Source: Verrucomicrobiota bacterium (lineage in GTDB: Bacteria > Verrucomicrobiota > Verrucomicrobiia > Limisphaerales > UBA1100). Taken from it: DNA of 12,326 bases. Position numbers and translations under genes: made by a program. The DNA lies in assembly GCA_015660155.1 (NCBI GenBank), contig DQLO01000163.1:1-12326 (forward strand). Reading direction: 5' to 3'. The notes beneath the pieces were generated by a model. That model searched no databases and was not told the DNA's origin. It worked only from the letters and a program-made list of their open reading frames with translations. How positions within the stretch are numbered: position 1 is the stretch's first letter; each line of letters begins with the position of its first letter. Shown in pieces: positions 6,291 to 12,326 of this stretch.

Positions 6291-7688
6291 TTAAAGTTCC
6301 CAATCTGTCCACGTCACTAAATCCCCCAGCGTCGGTCGGCCGTCGTGGCGCCAGCCCATGGGCGGGTTTTGCATTTGGCCGATCGGGCACACGCGCGTCA
6401 CGCCCCAATGCGCGAGCGTTTTGACCATTTCCTCGGCGTCATTTTTCGGCGCGGCCAAGGCGACGGTCGAAACTTGCCCGCGAGTCATCTCGGCGACGCG
6501 CAGCATTTCGCCCAAATTTTCCACCGCCTTCACGTGGATGAATCGGTTCAAGCAAGAGTTTACAAACACGGGGTCTTCCTCGAACACCACTGTCCAACTG
6601 GTGTCGCCATCGCTTTTCCATTGTTTCACATCACCGGTGTTGACCGAGCGCAGTTCAAAAAAATCTCGGCGATAGGCGATGTTCGCCGATTCTTCCGTGG
6701 AAATTTCACCGCGCGGTTCCTTTGCCTCCAAGGCTTCGATTTCGCCGGCCAACATTTCAGCGAACACCTCCGGCCGCACTGCGCCATTTTTCTCCACATA
6801 AAATAATTGCGGCGAAAGGCAGCCGAGCTGATTCCACGCGGCCACATCGCGCGCGGCGTTTTTCGCCAGCTCGATGGCCATCGCTCGGGAGAGGACATCA
6901 CGATGGATGTAACCGAAACTTACACGATGACCGTGCCCGAGGAATCGTTTTCCGAGCGGCAAGCGCGATTGAATTTCCGTCAGCGTTTCGTCGCGTCCGG
7001 TGGCCACGATGCAGTCCGCTTCATCAAAGAGCGCGGCTTCAAATGGATGGTCGCCGCCGGGCCAAATGGCCAACTCGAGACACGCGCCGAGTTTCGCATG
7101 CGCATCGTACAGTGAGTGGGCGAAGAGGCGGGGGATGAATCCGGCCCCTTCCGCGCATTTCACAAACTGTGCCGAACCGACGAGCACGCCGTGAACCATG
7201 CTCATCAGAGTAGGGCAGGGGAGATTGCCGGCGGTGATGTGGCCGATCAGCTCAGGGCCGCGCGCCATGGCGGTGCGGTTGTCGGCGCGTTCCTCGGGCG
7301 TGCCCATGGGGCCATCGAGCCGCCGCGAATCGCCGAGATCCTGAGCGATGAGATTGTGCAGGCTCTCCTCGGTGATGCGGCCGAAGAATTGGTCCAGCCC
7401 ACGGGCAAGGCTGGGTTTGGAAAAACCAGTGGCCTCGGGGCCGTGGGCGAGCGCCAGTTTGCGAATTGGAAAAAGGTCATCGCGCCAGTTGTGGGCCAGG
7501 CGCGCCAATATTTTAACGGACTGTTCGGTGGGCGTATCGCGGAGATGTTGAACGCGGTTGCGCTTCAATTGACGGCATGCCTCGGTAAGGATTTCCGGCG
7601 ACAACCGCGCTTCGGGTTGCGTGTCGATCAGAAAAAAATTTGGCAGGCCGAGGTCAAGCATGCGTTCGAGACCGTGCCTCATCGGCAC
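6291..7688 (-). CDS. luxC: LuxC-like acyl-CoA/acyl-protein reductase
   Basis: The family reduces activated fatty acyl groups to aldehydes with NADPH. In luminous bacteria it takes the acyl chain from LuxE. The product is 465 residues from the GTG at 7686-7688. The aldehyde-dehydrogenase-like fold is indicated by HITAGNLPCP near 150-160 and by the acyl-accepting cysteine Cys290 in NQLGCLSPQLF, close to Cys286 reported for Vibrio LuxC. The end of luxE overlaps the start. In-frame ATGs at 7680-7682 and 7659-7661 are alternatives, and the latter would leave only an 8-base overlap (ATGCTTGA). Since a 35-base overlap is unusual, the 456-residue version is plausible. Only the LuxE homologue beside it belongs to the known pathway; no luciferase subunits or LuxD are present. 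The enzyme should be cytoplasmic, as I see no signal peptide or membrane segment. Confidence 0.9.
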   Translation of the reverse strand: MPMRHGLERMLDLGLPNFFLIDTQPEARLSPEILTEACRQLKRNRVQHLRDTPTEQSVKILARLAHNWRDDLFPIRKLALAHGPEATGFSKPSLARGLDQFFGRITEESLHNLIAQDLGDSRRLDGPMGTPEERADNRTAMARGPELIGHITAGNLPCPTLMSMVHGVLVGSAQFVKCAEGAGFIPRLFAHSLYDAHAKLGACLELAIWPGGDHPFEAALFDEADCIVATGRDETLTEIQSRLPLGKRFLGHGHRVSFGYIHRDVLSRAMAIELAKNAARDVAAWNQLGCLSPQLFYVEKNGAVRPEVFAEMLAGEIEALEAKEPRGEISTEESANIAYRRDFFELRSVNTGDVKQWKSDGDTSWTVVFEEDPVFVNSCLNRFIHVKAVENLGEMLRVAEMTRGQVSTVALAAPKNDAEEMVKTLAHWGVTRVCPIGQMQNPPMGWRHDGRPTLGDLVTWTDWEL

Positions 7689-8745
7689 GGCGATTGTCGA
7701 GGTCGCTCGCGTTCAATGAACACCCGCGCGGTTCGGAGTTGGTTGCACGGCCAATCAATTCAAAGCCATCGGCGTGGCGGATCGCCAAGTCCGCTGTGCG
7801 CACGGCAAGCACGGAGCGCACGTTGGCGAGGTCGATGACTTCCAGTAGCCCCGTTTCGCCGAGGGACACTTCGCGACCGTGTTCCGGCGAGACGATTCGC
7901 GCGCGCGCCCAAGGCGGGAAGCGGAACCGGCGCGGGCCGCGCTGACCGGCCACCGTGTCGTACGCTTGCGAGCTGAGTTCGCACATGCCGTATTCGCTGA
8001 CGATGTCCTCATGTTTCAGCCCGTATTCACGGCTGATAAATTCGTGCAGTTTGGTTTTGGTCCACTCAATTTTTTCACCTTTGTAGCCGCCTGTTTCAAG
8101 AATGCGCGAGCCATGCGACACGATGTTGTTTCGATGTCGGGGCAATCGGTCAGCCAATTGCAGGAACGAAAGTGCCGTGCCCATCAGCAAAACGGGGCCC
8201 ACGTCAGGTTGGGAAAGGCTGTCCAAAACGTCAGTTTCCAAATCCCATTTCCCATCTTCTCCCACTCGGCCCATCGGGGTGACTTCCGGGTGGATGATGT
8301 CGAACATATGCGCCAACGAAGAATGCGGAACCTCCTTTGGGGACGGCGTGAGTGTAATGATGGATTCCACCTCGTCCGTTCGCATGTGAGGTTTGAACCA
8401 TGCGCGGGCGGAGGTCTCGTAAAGGTGAAGTGATTCGGCGTTGTGAAAATGGCGGCTGGGGGTTTGGCCGGTCGTGCCGCTTGAATGAAAAACGGTTGTT
8501 CGCTCGTTCGGTGGCAAACTGGTGATTTCAAATTCCTTGAACGCGGTGGTGGGAATGGCGGGGATGGCCGCGATGGCATTGGCGTTCTTGGGCGTCACGC
8601 CGCGGGATTCGCACAGGTGGCGGTAGGGCTCGACGTGTTCGTATTGGAGGGCAAAGAGGTCGCGGGCCAGTTCATCAAAATCGCCGTCCTCGCCGCCGAT
8701 GAAGGCGCGGACTCGCTCGGTGATGATGGTAAATTTATCGTCCAT
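7654..8745 (-). CDS. luxE: LuxE-like acyl-protein synthetase (fatty acid-activating AMP-forming ligase)
   Basis: LuxE activates a carboxylic acid with ATP to acyl-AMP, loads it on its own cysteine and hands it to LuxC. From ATG 8743-8745 the product has 363 residues, near the usual 370 or so. Adenylate-forming motifs are visible: the phosphate loop HSSGTTGQTPSRHF near residue 97-110, ETGGYKG, SEYGMCELSSQAYD, and LAVRTADLA near the C-terminus. A cysteine in PRGCSL, residue 342, sits where the acyl-accepting cysteine of Vibrio LuxE lies near its C-terminus. A GTG at 8773-8775 would add ten residues of weak conservation, so I prefer the ATG. The stop codon lies inside the start of luxC, which argues for coupled synthesis of a LuxE-LuxC complex. 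The natural substrate may be a fatty acid but could be another carboxylic acid. Confidence 0.88.
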   Translation of the reverse strand: MDDKFTIITERVRAFIGGEDGDFDELARDLFALQYEHVEPYRHLCESRGVTPKNANAIAAIPAIPTTAFKEFEITSLPPNERTTVFHSSGTTGQTPSRHFHNAESLHLYETSARAWFKPHMRTDEVESIITLTPSPKEVPHSSLAHMFDIIHPEVTPMGRVGEDGKWDLETDVLDSLSQPDVGPVLLMGTALSFLQLADRLPRHRNNIVSHGSRILETGGYKGEKIEWTKTKLHEFISREYGLKHEDIVSEYGMCELSSQAYDTVAGQRGPRRFRFPPWARARIVSPEHGREVSLGETGLLEVIDLANVRSVLAVRTADLAIRHADGFELIGRATNSEPRGCSLNASDLDNRRADEARSRTHA

Positions 8746-8793
8746 GCGGTTTTGATTTGGCTGGTGTGCCGCCACAGCCGACAGGAGGATAGC

Positions 8794-10135: not shown

Positions 10136-11158
10136 TTACTCCGTCTTGCGGATGAATTTCTGCATGCGTTTGCCGATGATGTCGCCGGCGTAAATGTTGC
10201 CGTCCTTGTCCAGCGCGAGGCAGTGCAGCCAGTTTAACTCGCCGGGTTGCTCCTTGCCATCGGTGGCCTTGGGGATGGTCCACATTTGTTGGAGCTTGCC
10301 GCCGGGCCGAAATTTCATAAAAACCTGATCCTTGGGCGGGCATCCGAGCGGTGCGCCGGGATACTTCGGGTTGAACCGCCATTTCATCGGCGAGGAGCCG
10401 CACACCCAAATGTCGTCGTTGGCCGTGATGCAAAATCCCCACGGCACGACGATGTCGCGCCAGGAATCAATCAGCTTGCCGGCGGTGTTGTAAACCTGCA
10501 CGCGCACGTTGTTGCGGTCGGCGATGTAAATATTGTCCTTCGAGTCGATGGCGATGGCGTGGGGAATACTAAAGCGATTATCGGTGTTGCCGAGCGTGCC
10601 CCACGCCTTGATGAATTTTCCATTCTTGTCGCAATGGACAATGCGGGCGTTGCCGTAGCCGTCGGAAATGAACACGTCGCCGTTGGAGGCGATCGCCATG
10701 TCGGTGGGTTTGTTGAGGTGCGTGTCGTCTTTTCCCTCCACGCCGGGCGTGCCGATGTGCATGAGCTCCTTGCCCTCGGGTGTGAACTTGCGCACGAGGT
10801 GCAGGCCGATATCCGCCAGCCAAACATTACCGTCTTTGTCAATTTTGATTTGGTGTGCCGTACTCTCCTCTTCTGTGGCCCAGCTTTTCACCAGTTCGCC
10901 GATGGGCGAGTAAACCTGAATCGCCGGTTGCGTGCGCGTGTAGCACCAGATGTTTCCGTCGGAGTCAATTGCCACGCCGGGCATATGGGCCCACGGCATG
11001 TCCGCCCTCCGCTTCGGCCACGCGGCATCGACTTCGTAATATGGTGAAACATTGACGACCGGATAAGGGCTCGGCTCCGTCGGTTCAGTTGGGGCCGTTG
11101 AACATGCGGTGACGATAACAAGCGACAATGCGAGCGGAAGAATGTGGAGTGGTTTCAT
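10136..11158 (-). CDS. NHL/six-bladed beta-propeller lipoprotein
   Basis: The product of 340 residues has a lipoprotein signal ending in VTAC with Cys19 as the lipidated residue, followed by a Pro/Thr/Glu-rich linker (about 20-35). This anchors it to an envelope membrane. Six similar segments, each with a pattern like AIDxDGNIYxAD, run from about residue 60 to the end (for example GVAIDSDGNIW, QIKIDKDGNVW, AIAIDSKDNIY, CLALDKDGNIY), indicating an NHL-type propeller. Such proteins bind ligands or other proteins, and some relatives act as peptidyl-amidoglycolate lyases; no catalytic assignment is possible here. Its ATG overlaps the ubiD stop as ATGA, and the sulfatase gene follows 7 bases after its stop. 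A role alongside the sulfatase at the cell surface is a reasonable guess from context only. Confidence 0.9.
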   Translation of the reverse strand: MKPLHILPLALSLVIVTACSTAPTEPTEPSPYPVVNVSPYYEVDAAWPKRRADMPWAHMPGVAIDSDGNIWCYTRTQPAIQVYSPIGELVKSWATEEESTAHQIKIDKDGNVWLADIGLHLVRKFTPEGKELMHIGTPGVEGKDDTHLNKPTDMAIASNGDVFISDGYGNARIVHCDKNGKFIKAWGTLGNTDNRFSIPHAIAIDSKDNIYIADRNNVRVQVYNTAGKLIDSWRDIVVPWGFCITANDDIWVCGSSPMKWRFNPKYPGAPLGCPPKDQVFMKFRPGGKLQQMWTIPKATDGKEQPGELNWLHCLALDKDGNIYAGDIIGKRMQKFIRKTE

Positions 11159-12326
11159 CGGGCCGAATCATGGGTGGTGTTCAAAATTTCATCCACCTTT
11201 TTCTTCACGGCCTCATCCATTTCAATAATGGGTGGCCATTCGCGGTGGAAGCCGTTCTCGCCGGGGAGTTTGTGGGTGGCGTCGAGGCCAAGCTTGGTGC
11301 CGATGGCCATCTCGGTGGTGGCGTGGTCGAGGACGTCAGCGGGGCCGCGGGTGAAGAGGGCGTCTCGCTGGGGGTCGGTGCAAGCGCCAAGGCGGAAGAG
11401 GACTTCGCTGGTGTTGTGGACGTCCACATCTTCGTCAACCACGATGATGTATTTGGCGAACATCATTTGGCCCGCGCCCCAAAGACCGTGCATGATTTTG
11501 TAGGCCTGCATGGGATAGGTTTTTTTGATGCTGACGAAAACGAGATTGTGGAAGACGCCTTCGGCGGGCAAGGCGAGGTCGACCAACTCGGGGGAATTCA
11601 TTTTCAGGATCGGCAGAAAAAGTCGGACGCTGGCGCCGCCCAAATAAAAATCCTCCATCGGCGGTTGGCCGACGATGGTGCTCGGGTAAATGGCGTCTTT
11701 ACGATGCGTGATGGCGGTGAGGTGAAAGGCGGGGTAAGGCTCGGGCAAGGTGTAGTAGCCGGTGTGATCGCCAAAGGGGCCTTCGTCGCGCAGGGGCTCG
11801 GTGGGGTCGATGTAGCCTTCGAGGACGATGTCGGCATCGGCGGGCACCTCGAGGTCGTTCGTCTCGCACTTGACGAGCGGCACGGATTTTTTGCGGAGCC
11901 ATCCGGCGAGCAGTAATTCGTCCAGCCCATCGGGCAACGGCGCGCTGGCGCAGAAGGCGTAAACCGGATCGCCGCCGAGGAAGACGCTGACCGGCATCCG
12001 CTCACCTCTTTCGTAATAGCGGCGGCCATGACGGGCGGCGACTTTTTGCAACTGCCAATGCAGCGCGGTGGTTTGCTCGTCAAAAACCTGCATGCGATAC
12101 AGACCAAGATTGCGGTCGCCGGTATCAGGATCGTGAGTGACGACGCAGGGAAGAGTGAGAAAGCGCCCGGCGTCTTGAGGCCAGCATTGCTGAATGGGGA
12201 AATTTAGGAGGGTTGAGAGTTGAGGGTTGAAGGTCGATGGATTCTGACTCCTGTCTCCTGACTCCTCAAAAATGTGAACCACTTCTTTGCAGGGGCCGCT
12301 GCTGACTTTCTTGGGCTTGGCGTGGC
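11155..12326 (-). CDS. UbiD-family prenylated-FMN decarboxylase, N-terminus beyond the right edge
   Basis: UbiD enzymes use prenylated FMN to decarboxylate aromatic or unsaturated acids, classically in ubiquinone synthesis. The frame is open to the window edge and already shows conserved sequence there (HAKPKKVSSGPCKEVVH), so the GTG at 12280-12282 is internal and not a start. Family motifs follow: CWPQDAGRFLTLPCV, NLGLYRMQVFD, ADIVLEGYI and EGPFGDHTGYY (bases 11767-11784 for EGPFGD). The last contains the Glu/acidic pair associated with catalysis in this family, with Asp in the second place. Between VVH and NFPIQQCWP lies a tract of about 22 residues where I expect only about eight (usually like TGDEVDLL). 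It is encoded by 7-base repeats. The exact substrate is unknown: quinone precursor or another aromatic acid. The C-terminus overlaps the next gene as ATGA. Confidence 0.9.
   Translation of the reverse strand, partial: HAKPKKVSSGPCKEVVHIFEESGDRSQNPSTFNPQLSTLLNFPIQQCWPQDAGRFLTLPCVVTHDPDTGDRNLGLYRMQVFDEQTTALHWQLQKVAARHGRRYYERGERMPVSVFLGGDPVYAFCASAPLPDGLDELLLAGWLRKKSVPLVKCETNDLEVPADADIVLEGYIDPTEPLRDEGPFGDHTGYYTLPEPYPAFHLTAITHRKDAIYPSTIVGQPPMEDFYLGGASVRLFLPILKMNSPELVDLALPAEGVFHNLVFVSIKKTYPMQAYKIMHGLWGAGQMMFAKYIIVVDEDVDVHNTSEVLFRLGACTDPQRDALFTRGPADVLDHATTEMAIGTKLGLDATHKLPGENGFHREWPPIIEMDEAVKKKVDEILNTTHDSAR
12207..12265 (-). repeat. Two adjacent 7-base tandem repeat arrays inside ubiD
   Basis: Read on the plus strand, about five 7-base units occupy 12207-12241: aggaggg, ttgagag, ttgaggg, ttgaagg, tcgatgg. 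Three more occupy 12245-12265: tgactcc, tgtctcc, tgactcc. The tract is translated in frame within the UbiD reading frame as a Ser/Asn/Gln/Thr-rich loop (about SGDRSQNPSTFNPQLST). Arrays of this type look like the short intergenic repeats of some bacterial genomes, but I cannot confirm copies elsewhere. The 7-base period is not a multiple of three, yet the total change keeps the frame. Confidence 0.75.

Follow-up and report, generated by a model that had tools for sequence, protein, structure and literature searches.

Heptanucleotide arrays with changing units recur in a loop of UbiD-family decarboxylase genes of Verrucomicrobiota

In the Verrucomicrobiota considered here, a UbiD-family decarboxylase probably has a tolerant loop that is a recurrent site at which heptanucleotide arrays are born and turned over in place by copying in steps of 7 nt. 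Arrays of period 7 recur at orthologous sites, their units differ between sister species, and a length difference of three units keeps the reading frame. The gene in question is the last one of the window, i.e. of the whole stretch of 12,326 nucleotides that was analysed, and the features of this region are the following.

11155..12324, minus strand: UbiD-family decarboxylase gene (Pfam PF01977/PF20696, NCBIfam, overlap with contig C68)
12244..12266, minus strand: array A, GGAGTCA GGAGACA GGAGTCA in coding orientation, first in the gene (TRF, self-match score)
12208..12240, minus strand: array B, CTTCAAC CCTCAAC TCTCAAC CCTC in coding orientation, second in the gene (TRF, self-match score)
12204..12270 (span of the first-pass annotation), minus strand: variable loop between CKEVVH and FPIQQCWP, mostly encoded by the arrays (protein alignment)
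12232..12326, no strand: exact 95-base match to the C68 3' end (contig overlap)

The open reading frame codes for 389 amino acids and is open at its 5' end, where the contig stops; the missing 5' part of the gene was found on contig C68 of the same assembly (G000). Its product matched PF01977 (4.4e-79, 264.9 bits) and PF20696 (129.7 bits), in both cases above the curated cut-off, and passed the NCBIfam model TIGR00148 with a score of 377.8 for a cut-off of 244.85. With TIGR03701, the menaquinone model of NCBIfam, the 5'-open frame scored 480.5 and falls short of the cut-off of 495.9, and the full-length relative P0002 (95% identical) scored 578.4 and passes. Judged by these profile matches, the gene is predicted to encode a UbiD-family decarboxylase, the nearest named model being the menaquinone biosynthesis decarboxylase. 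Elsewhere in the window, at 6291-8775, a LuxC-like acyl-CoA reductase (PF05893) adjoins a LuxE-like acyl-protein synthetase (PF04443), with no sign of light emission.

The two neighbouring 7-base arrays reported in this gene by the first-pass annotation were recovered independently of it. TRF returned GAGGGTT in 3.9 copies at 12208-12234 and CTGACTC in 3.3 copies at 12244-12266, and the self-match score was 13.5 for 12208-12240 and 11.0 for 12244-12266, the sole period-7 segments of the window scoring at least 9.5 (two segments of period 9 reach this value elsewhere in it). Among 300 dinucleotide shuffles of the window, a period-7 segment scoring at least 9.5 was present in 26 and one scoring at least 11 in 6, and two period-7 segments within 80 bp were present in none, so that by TRF and shuffles the degenerate 7-bp tandem units are above chance. 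The arrays keep the frame, as had also been claimed, inside the open reading frame matched by PF01977 and PF20696. Since a period of 7 nt shifts the frame with every unit, such arrays cannot have come from amino acid selection by itself, and they were made at the DNA level.

The loop is a fast-changing segment situated mostly between the Pfam domains UbiD_N and UbiD, which in P0002 span residues 11-87 and 157-340, the loop itself covering residues 134-161. This placement comes from the Pfam boundaries and from the alignment to E. coli UbiD (2IDB/5M1C); an AlphaFold2 model of P0002, computed with 33 close homologues, had a mean pLDDT of 45.2 and was unusable. P0002 and P0003, two metagenome proteins that are almost identical, are distinguished by 5 residues, of which 4 fall inside the 28-residue loop, and the 15 pairs formed by P0002 to P0007 exhibited 4-5 loop differences between two subgroups and 0-1 within them. 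A usual loop of about eight residues, as first proposed, holds in comparison with E. coli UbiD and not in comparison with the gene's own relatives: the segment from CK to CWP has 38 residues in the window, 33 and 31 in the nearest array-free relatives (L136 and L137, respectively) and 47 in many further relatives, with or without arrays.

Contig C68 ends at 12232, within the first bases of array B, and because it stops there the assembly can be said to have broken at the arrays; it is plausible that array B varies among strains at this point. The break, together with the 95-bp overlap with the window contig, is what could speak for an assembly artefact or a chimera, to which we give practically no chance. 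Separate assemblies of sister species carry arrays in the same loop, which refutes an artefact as a general explanation, and array-like loops are found in metagenome proteins as well.

The loop was compared among 110 UbiD loci, i.e. 30 from relatives and the best 80 of 341 named loci, which correspond to 86 distinct genes, the window included, after removal of 23 repeats and of L208. According to their titles, nearly all of them belong to Verrucomicrobiota or to a 'bacterium', and L138 and L144 to Proteobacteria. A period-7 array with a score of at least 10 was found in the loop of 40 of the 86 distinct genes, in a sample that includes the best 80 of 341. At the same score no other period between 4 and 11 was detected and period 12 was detected once, and at a score of at least 9 the periods 4, 5, 10 and 12 were seen 1, 1, 2 and 1 times, respectively. 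Control windows of equal length downstream of the loop (n=568) gave no array of period 7 and six of period 6. The 40 arrays present 25 consensus units, a few of which are mixtures of two neighbouring arrays, and among them are ATCATCA, CACTCCG, CAACACG, CAGTGCT, CACGCAT, CCAGTCA, CTCGAAT and GTCGAGA. A quick tree was computed with the loop excluded; 41 of its 83 inner branches are open, and 9 rows have loops that a loose pattern made over-long at the left at the expense of part of the pre-loop segment. On it, at least 37 changes of unit and at least 20 changes between presence and absence are required. UbiD genes of this type are also found in metagenome bins titled Akkermansia muciniphila (L141, L145, L157, L172 and L191), titles that may be mislabelled. 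L208, a UbiD orthologue, has a stop in the loop (PPTR*KPWP), its frame being otherwise continuous over the part examined.

As to the suggested check against near relatives, the loop of L136 and L137 is array-free and shorter than in the window, and four of the five other orthologues of the same genus (L132, L034, L134 and L135) present an array there, L133 remaining below the score. This is at variance with the idea of one mobile repeat that landed once in a short loop, as are the units themselves, which switch between sisters while position, and often length, stay constant. Array B is identical in the window and in its sister L132 (95% identical), and where the window has GGAGTCA in array A, the sister has a GAGAGCC-type unit, with aligned flanks.

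The repeat had also been thought to be dispersed in this genome, and both array types indeed recur elsewhere in it, several times in frame in other conserved genes. In the G000 assembly (2.15 Mb, 73.6% complete, 423 contigs), TTGAGRG arrays were found on contigs C74, C248, C266 and C309, and CAGGAGNCAG-type arrays, with 1-2 mismatches, on C248, C273 and C213. The arrays of C266 and C213 lie outside any recognised gene, and a UbiD paralogue on C113 showed no obvious array. The remaining sites, to which a weaker copy is added, are the following.

C74: C-terminal tail of AroB, in-frame TTGAGRG array
C248: inter-domain linker of MutL, both array types, in frame
C309: loop of ThiE, in-frame TTGAGRG array
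C273: C-terminal tail of ThiG, in-frame CAGGAGNCAG-type array
C229: DUF1553/1549 protein, weaker array copy

We examined ThiE and MutL in the window's order, using the best 30 matches of 58 genomes for each. In whole open reading frames, period-7 arrays scoring at least 11 were present in 5 of the 30 ThiE and 13 of the 30 MutL orthologues (best 30 of 58), any other period being seen in at most one gene; of the 13 MutL genes, L264 has its array outside the linker and L273 was read in a split frame. In the subset in which a pattern located the ThiE loop (19 of 30) or the MutL linker (20 of 30), period 7 with a score of at least 10 was found in 5 and 11 genes, respectively. Within the genus and with aligned flanks, the MutL linker has CAACCCT in L260 and L262, CAACCAT in L261 and ACTCCCC in L263, and L264 has a related tract that scores just 7.5. 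The MutL loop before GFIGA carries three different units in L282, L285 and L287. In ThiE, L318 is longer than L293 and L294 of the same genus by exactly 21 nt, i.e. three units, after a common ATCAACC, a difference that is not polarised in direction, and ThiE loops with an array often equal those without one in length, at 28 aa within the genus and 32 aa in other families. Three-unit steps and overwriting at constant length are thus both observed. The mismatch-repair gene mutL itself holds several heptamer arrays, with up to three different units per gene (L260, which is G000:C248, L282, L287 and L288). In the sister G006, the match to mutL (L273, G006:C16:1123-2041) falls into two frames that overlap around the linker with the heptamers, through a frameshift or an assembly error.

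Period 7 also dominates in part of the wider sequence sampled. Among 1.11 Mb of UbiD-centred loci, 57 arrays of period 7 reached a score of at least 13, compared with 11, 6, 13 and 17 of periods 6, 8, 9 and 14, respectively; 33 of the 57 lie in the UbiD loop, or 37 by a fuller list that adds four in L172, L178 and L192. At the same score, 385 kb of G043 gave 20 arrays of period 7 and 5, 5, 0 and 5 of periods 6, 8, 9 and 14, 384 kb of the sister G006 gave 2 of period 7 (both in UbiD) and 4, 0, 2 and 2 of the others, and shuffled sequence gave none of period 7. At a score of at least 12, 400 kb of G199 showed 10 arrays of period 7, one of which is a low-complexity C tract, 5 of period 6 and 4 of period 8, and 200 kb each of G115 and G090 showed no period-7 array, six TTGAGRG matches of G115 lying elsewhere than in its 200-kb sample. 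Under a stricter criterion (19 of 21 matches), 6 period-7 tracts were obtained in G043 and 0 in G006. The excess of period 7 is thus not general, as the G006, G115 and G090 samples show, and the samples were not blind, the G199 contigs having been picked from CACGCAT matches and 4 of the 8 G043 contigs from UbiD-like matches. In G043 (L112-L131), period-8 arrays were observed too, 5 at a score of at least 13 and 7 at a score of at least 12 in 385 kb, so that 7 is dominant there and not exclusive. By a crude call of stop-to-stop frames of at least 110 codons, 17 of the 20 G043 arrays and 46 of the 57 arrays of the named loci, which are mostly UbiD, are inside such frames; as these frames cover about 96% of the bases, this indicates no enrichment in genes, merely no visible intergenic bias. 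The arrays of G043 and of the named loci are thus not mainly intergenic, as heptameric SSRs and STRR, the name given to the heptanucleotide repeats of cyanobacteria, would be.

The units are not random and are in part common to different genomes. Outside UbiD, 18 of 895 cross-genome pairs of arrays had identical units, where 60 null draws, with kinship uncontrolled, gave a mean of 1.0 and at most 4. Of 30 genomes in a panel, 17 had CACTCCG, 14 had CACGCAT and 4 had ATCATCA. As unit matches overlap, the following counts exceed the number of arrays: 17 matches of CACTCCG in G197, which has this unit in its UbiD, and 16 in G205 (one long array), and 50 matches of CACGCAT in G199, which has that unit in its UbiD, and 76 in G206. 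ATCATCA was found only at UbiD in its carrier G196, with no other 18-nt array at one mismatch or less. TTGAGRG arrays are present in 97 of 196 genomes of the window's order, and CCCTCAA arrays, searched with a longer pattern, in 21 of 387 genomes drawn evenly from the phylum, G000 included; these are rare outside the order. Such common units point to some preference for certain sequences or to copying from one locus to another, and together with the abundance in carrier genomes they fit inter-locus copying as well as biased birth.

One could see here a dispersed family of mobile repeats, REP-like or copied by an enzyme, that inserts ready-made heptamer arrays at tolerant sites in the style of Rickettsia palindromic elements, an explanation that we hold to be unlikely. 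The identical units at several loci of one genome and the units common across genomes would agree with it, and so would the palindromic or REP-like repeats recognised by eye, in frame, in the UbiD loop of L187, L197, L202, L194, L207 and L211, where they stand alone or sometimes adjoin a heptamer array. In the flanks inspected by eye, however, nothing in common was seen beyond the 7-mers; the often constant length of the ThiE loop with or without an array and the confinement of ATCATCA to UbiD in G196 also count against insertion. Rickettsia palindromic elements are in-frame repeats tolerated in conserved genes, long palindromes that form a conserved sequence family. The window arrays are likewise in frame in a conserved gene, by insertion or overwriting, but they are short 7-mers of changing unit without a palindromic stem, and across loci the 7-mer alone is common, with varying units, instead of a conserved sequence (flanks by eye). 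The analogy to these elements drawn by the first-pass annotation is apt, owing to the palindromic-looking repeats of some relatives in the same loop; the window's own tract is not palindromic.

No enzyme that makes the arrays was identified when RVT_1 and Y1_Tnp were compared across 97 array-positive and 99 array-negative genomes. Y1_Tnp, which would suit a mobile repeat, was present in 87 of the former and 71 of the latter (Fisher p=0.002, uncorrected for genome size, completeness and kinship), a weak association of Y1 transposases with the arrays, yet five genomes with at least 10 TTGAGRG matches (G000, G002, G006, G037 and G094) have no Y1_Tnp match. The status of each genome rests in these tests on one motif, TTGAGRG, with overlapping matches; the reversed motif, on which several genomes are high too, is no true control because the form with R=A reads identically backwards. 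The lack of an enzyme family is weak evidence, since many genomes are incomplete. A reverse transcriptase was considered as the maker and rejected: 47 of the 97 array-positive genomes have RVT_1, as do 35 of the 99 array-negative ones (Fisher p=0.08), and 18 genomes with at least 10 matches lack it.

Considering the turnover of units, the constant position and length, the 21-nt difference in ThiE and the solitary ATCATCA, birth or overwriting of the arrays in place is favoured over transposition, copying from other loci remaining compatible with the same facts. The copying with a 7-nt step would be slippage or template switching at short range, at times accompanied by a nearby inverted copy, and an array would start either on a native seed or on a favoured unit, the set of which is limited. 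The arrays that survive would be those that keep the frame and avoid stops, either by three-unit steps or by overwriting without change of length. Such a process, filtered also by what the loop tolerates, accounts for the recurrence, the change of unit, the three-unit difference and the constant length. We infer the copying mechanism, its direction, gain and not loss, and the position of the loop at the surface. The array would then be a mutational by-product that a surface loop tolerates, and no evidence of a dedicated function was seen. Against this reading, slippage alone does not explain why the period is 7 and not 6 or 8, and slips by one unit would disrupt the frame of conserved genes. 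A dedicated process of copying in 7-nt steps, with favoured units and sometimes inverted, that overwrites the UbiD, ThiE and MutL loops lineage by lineage in many Verrucomicrobiota genomes is a possible but doubtful extension; if true, coding loops would be built by a repeat process at the DNA level and not by codon-level evolution.

Inverted copies could also mean that the arrays are kept for a hairpin of two arms in mRNA or single-stranded DNA, as in P6b of the cyanobacterial tRNA-Leu intron, which seems to us quite improbable. The segments before and after WP.A in 65 UbiD genes had a complementarity of 7.11 within the gene and of 5.75 ± 0.17 when permuted (0/5000), in a permutation that ignores kinship and covers 65 of the 86 genes, the window's genus being absent from it. 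The loop of L206 folds with a z of -2.81, and an inverted partner within 200 bp accompanies 7 of 21 G043 arrays, for 0 of 21 in the control. Against this, the RNA fold of the window's own tract is no better than that of shuffles (z 0.04), and 0 of 10 G199 arrays have such a partner. Inverted copies thus play a part in some lineages and are no requirement.

Repeats of this kind are already known. According to the accessible part of PMC4692102, heptameric repeats are over-represented in many bacteria, an excess that has been noted with little detailed study, GGGNATC having been studied in Xanthomonas and Nostoc; a survey, in the part accessible, finds a subset of 6-9 bp units enriched in prokaryotic phyla (PMC12699852). 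The arrays described here resemble the heptameric SSRs of Xanthomonas and Nostoc and the cyanobacterial STRR in their 7-bp units, few copies and genome-wide spread. As far as the same part of the source goes, the Xanthomonas and Nostoc SSRs are over-represented in non-coding sequence and G-quadruplex capable, whereas ours are located in orthologous protein loops and vary in unit from lineage to lineage. The TAACTGA direct repeats of Beggiatoaceae, Cyanobacteria and Bacteroidetes are, in the available text of MacGregor 2015 (PMC4679880), similar heptamer arrays that differ between strains in 7-nt increments and are occasionally found within ORFs, mostly near protein ends. That text describes a single principal unit, found mainly ahead of start codons, and not an orthologous protein loop with many units. 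It proposes a regulatory role for the intergenic repeats, and heptamer arrays as protein- or RNA-binding regulatory sites would be a further reading, in our view a very improbable one, since the arrays here are inside coding loops and the unit differs between sisters at the same site. The P6b hairpin of the Nostoc tRNA-Leu intron is formed by pairing of degenerate heptanucleotide repeats (the accessible part of PMC3488679, citing Costa et al. 2002); these heptamers too lie at a variable site, fall into two classes and change in copy number, and the complementary arms of some UbiD relatives recall their pairing. P6b is, by that account, a non-coding intron stem of pairing repeats, unlike the window tract, which has no stable hairpin. 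On the whole, our arrays are nearer to the cyanobacterial and Beggiatoaceae heptamer repeats than to Rickettsia palindromic elements. Within a limited search of the literature and as far as shown here, it is the recurrence of lineage-specific arrays in orthologous protein loops that is new.

Orthologous loops with aligned flanks and known sisters allow gains, losses and changes of unit to be followed by comparison, by which slippage, template switching and transposition become separable. Loop sequences of many environmental proteins should accordingly not be taken for functional motifs, and the UbiD loop looks like one case of a recurring, poorly explained route by which protein loops change.

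Two observations on composition were made post hoc: 38 of 42 distinct heptamer units contain TC/GA, compared with 28.0 ± 2.8 of shuffled units, and TA is depleted in the 42 units (7 for 19.5 expected). Both may perhaps come in part from the avoidance of stop codons. Finally, the exact array CCCTCAACCCTCAACCCTCAA, a 21-mer, is present in 35 stretches of uncultivated viral contigs (L320-L354).
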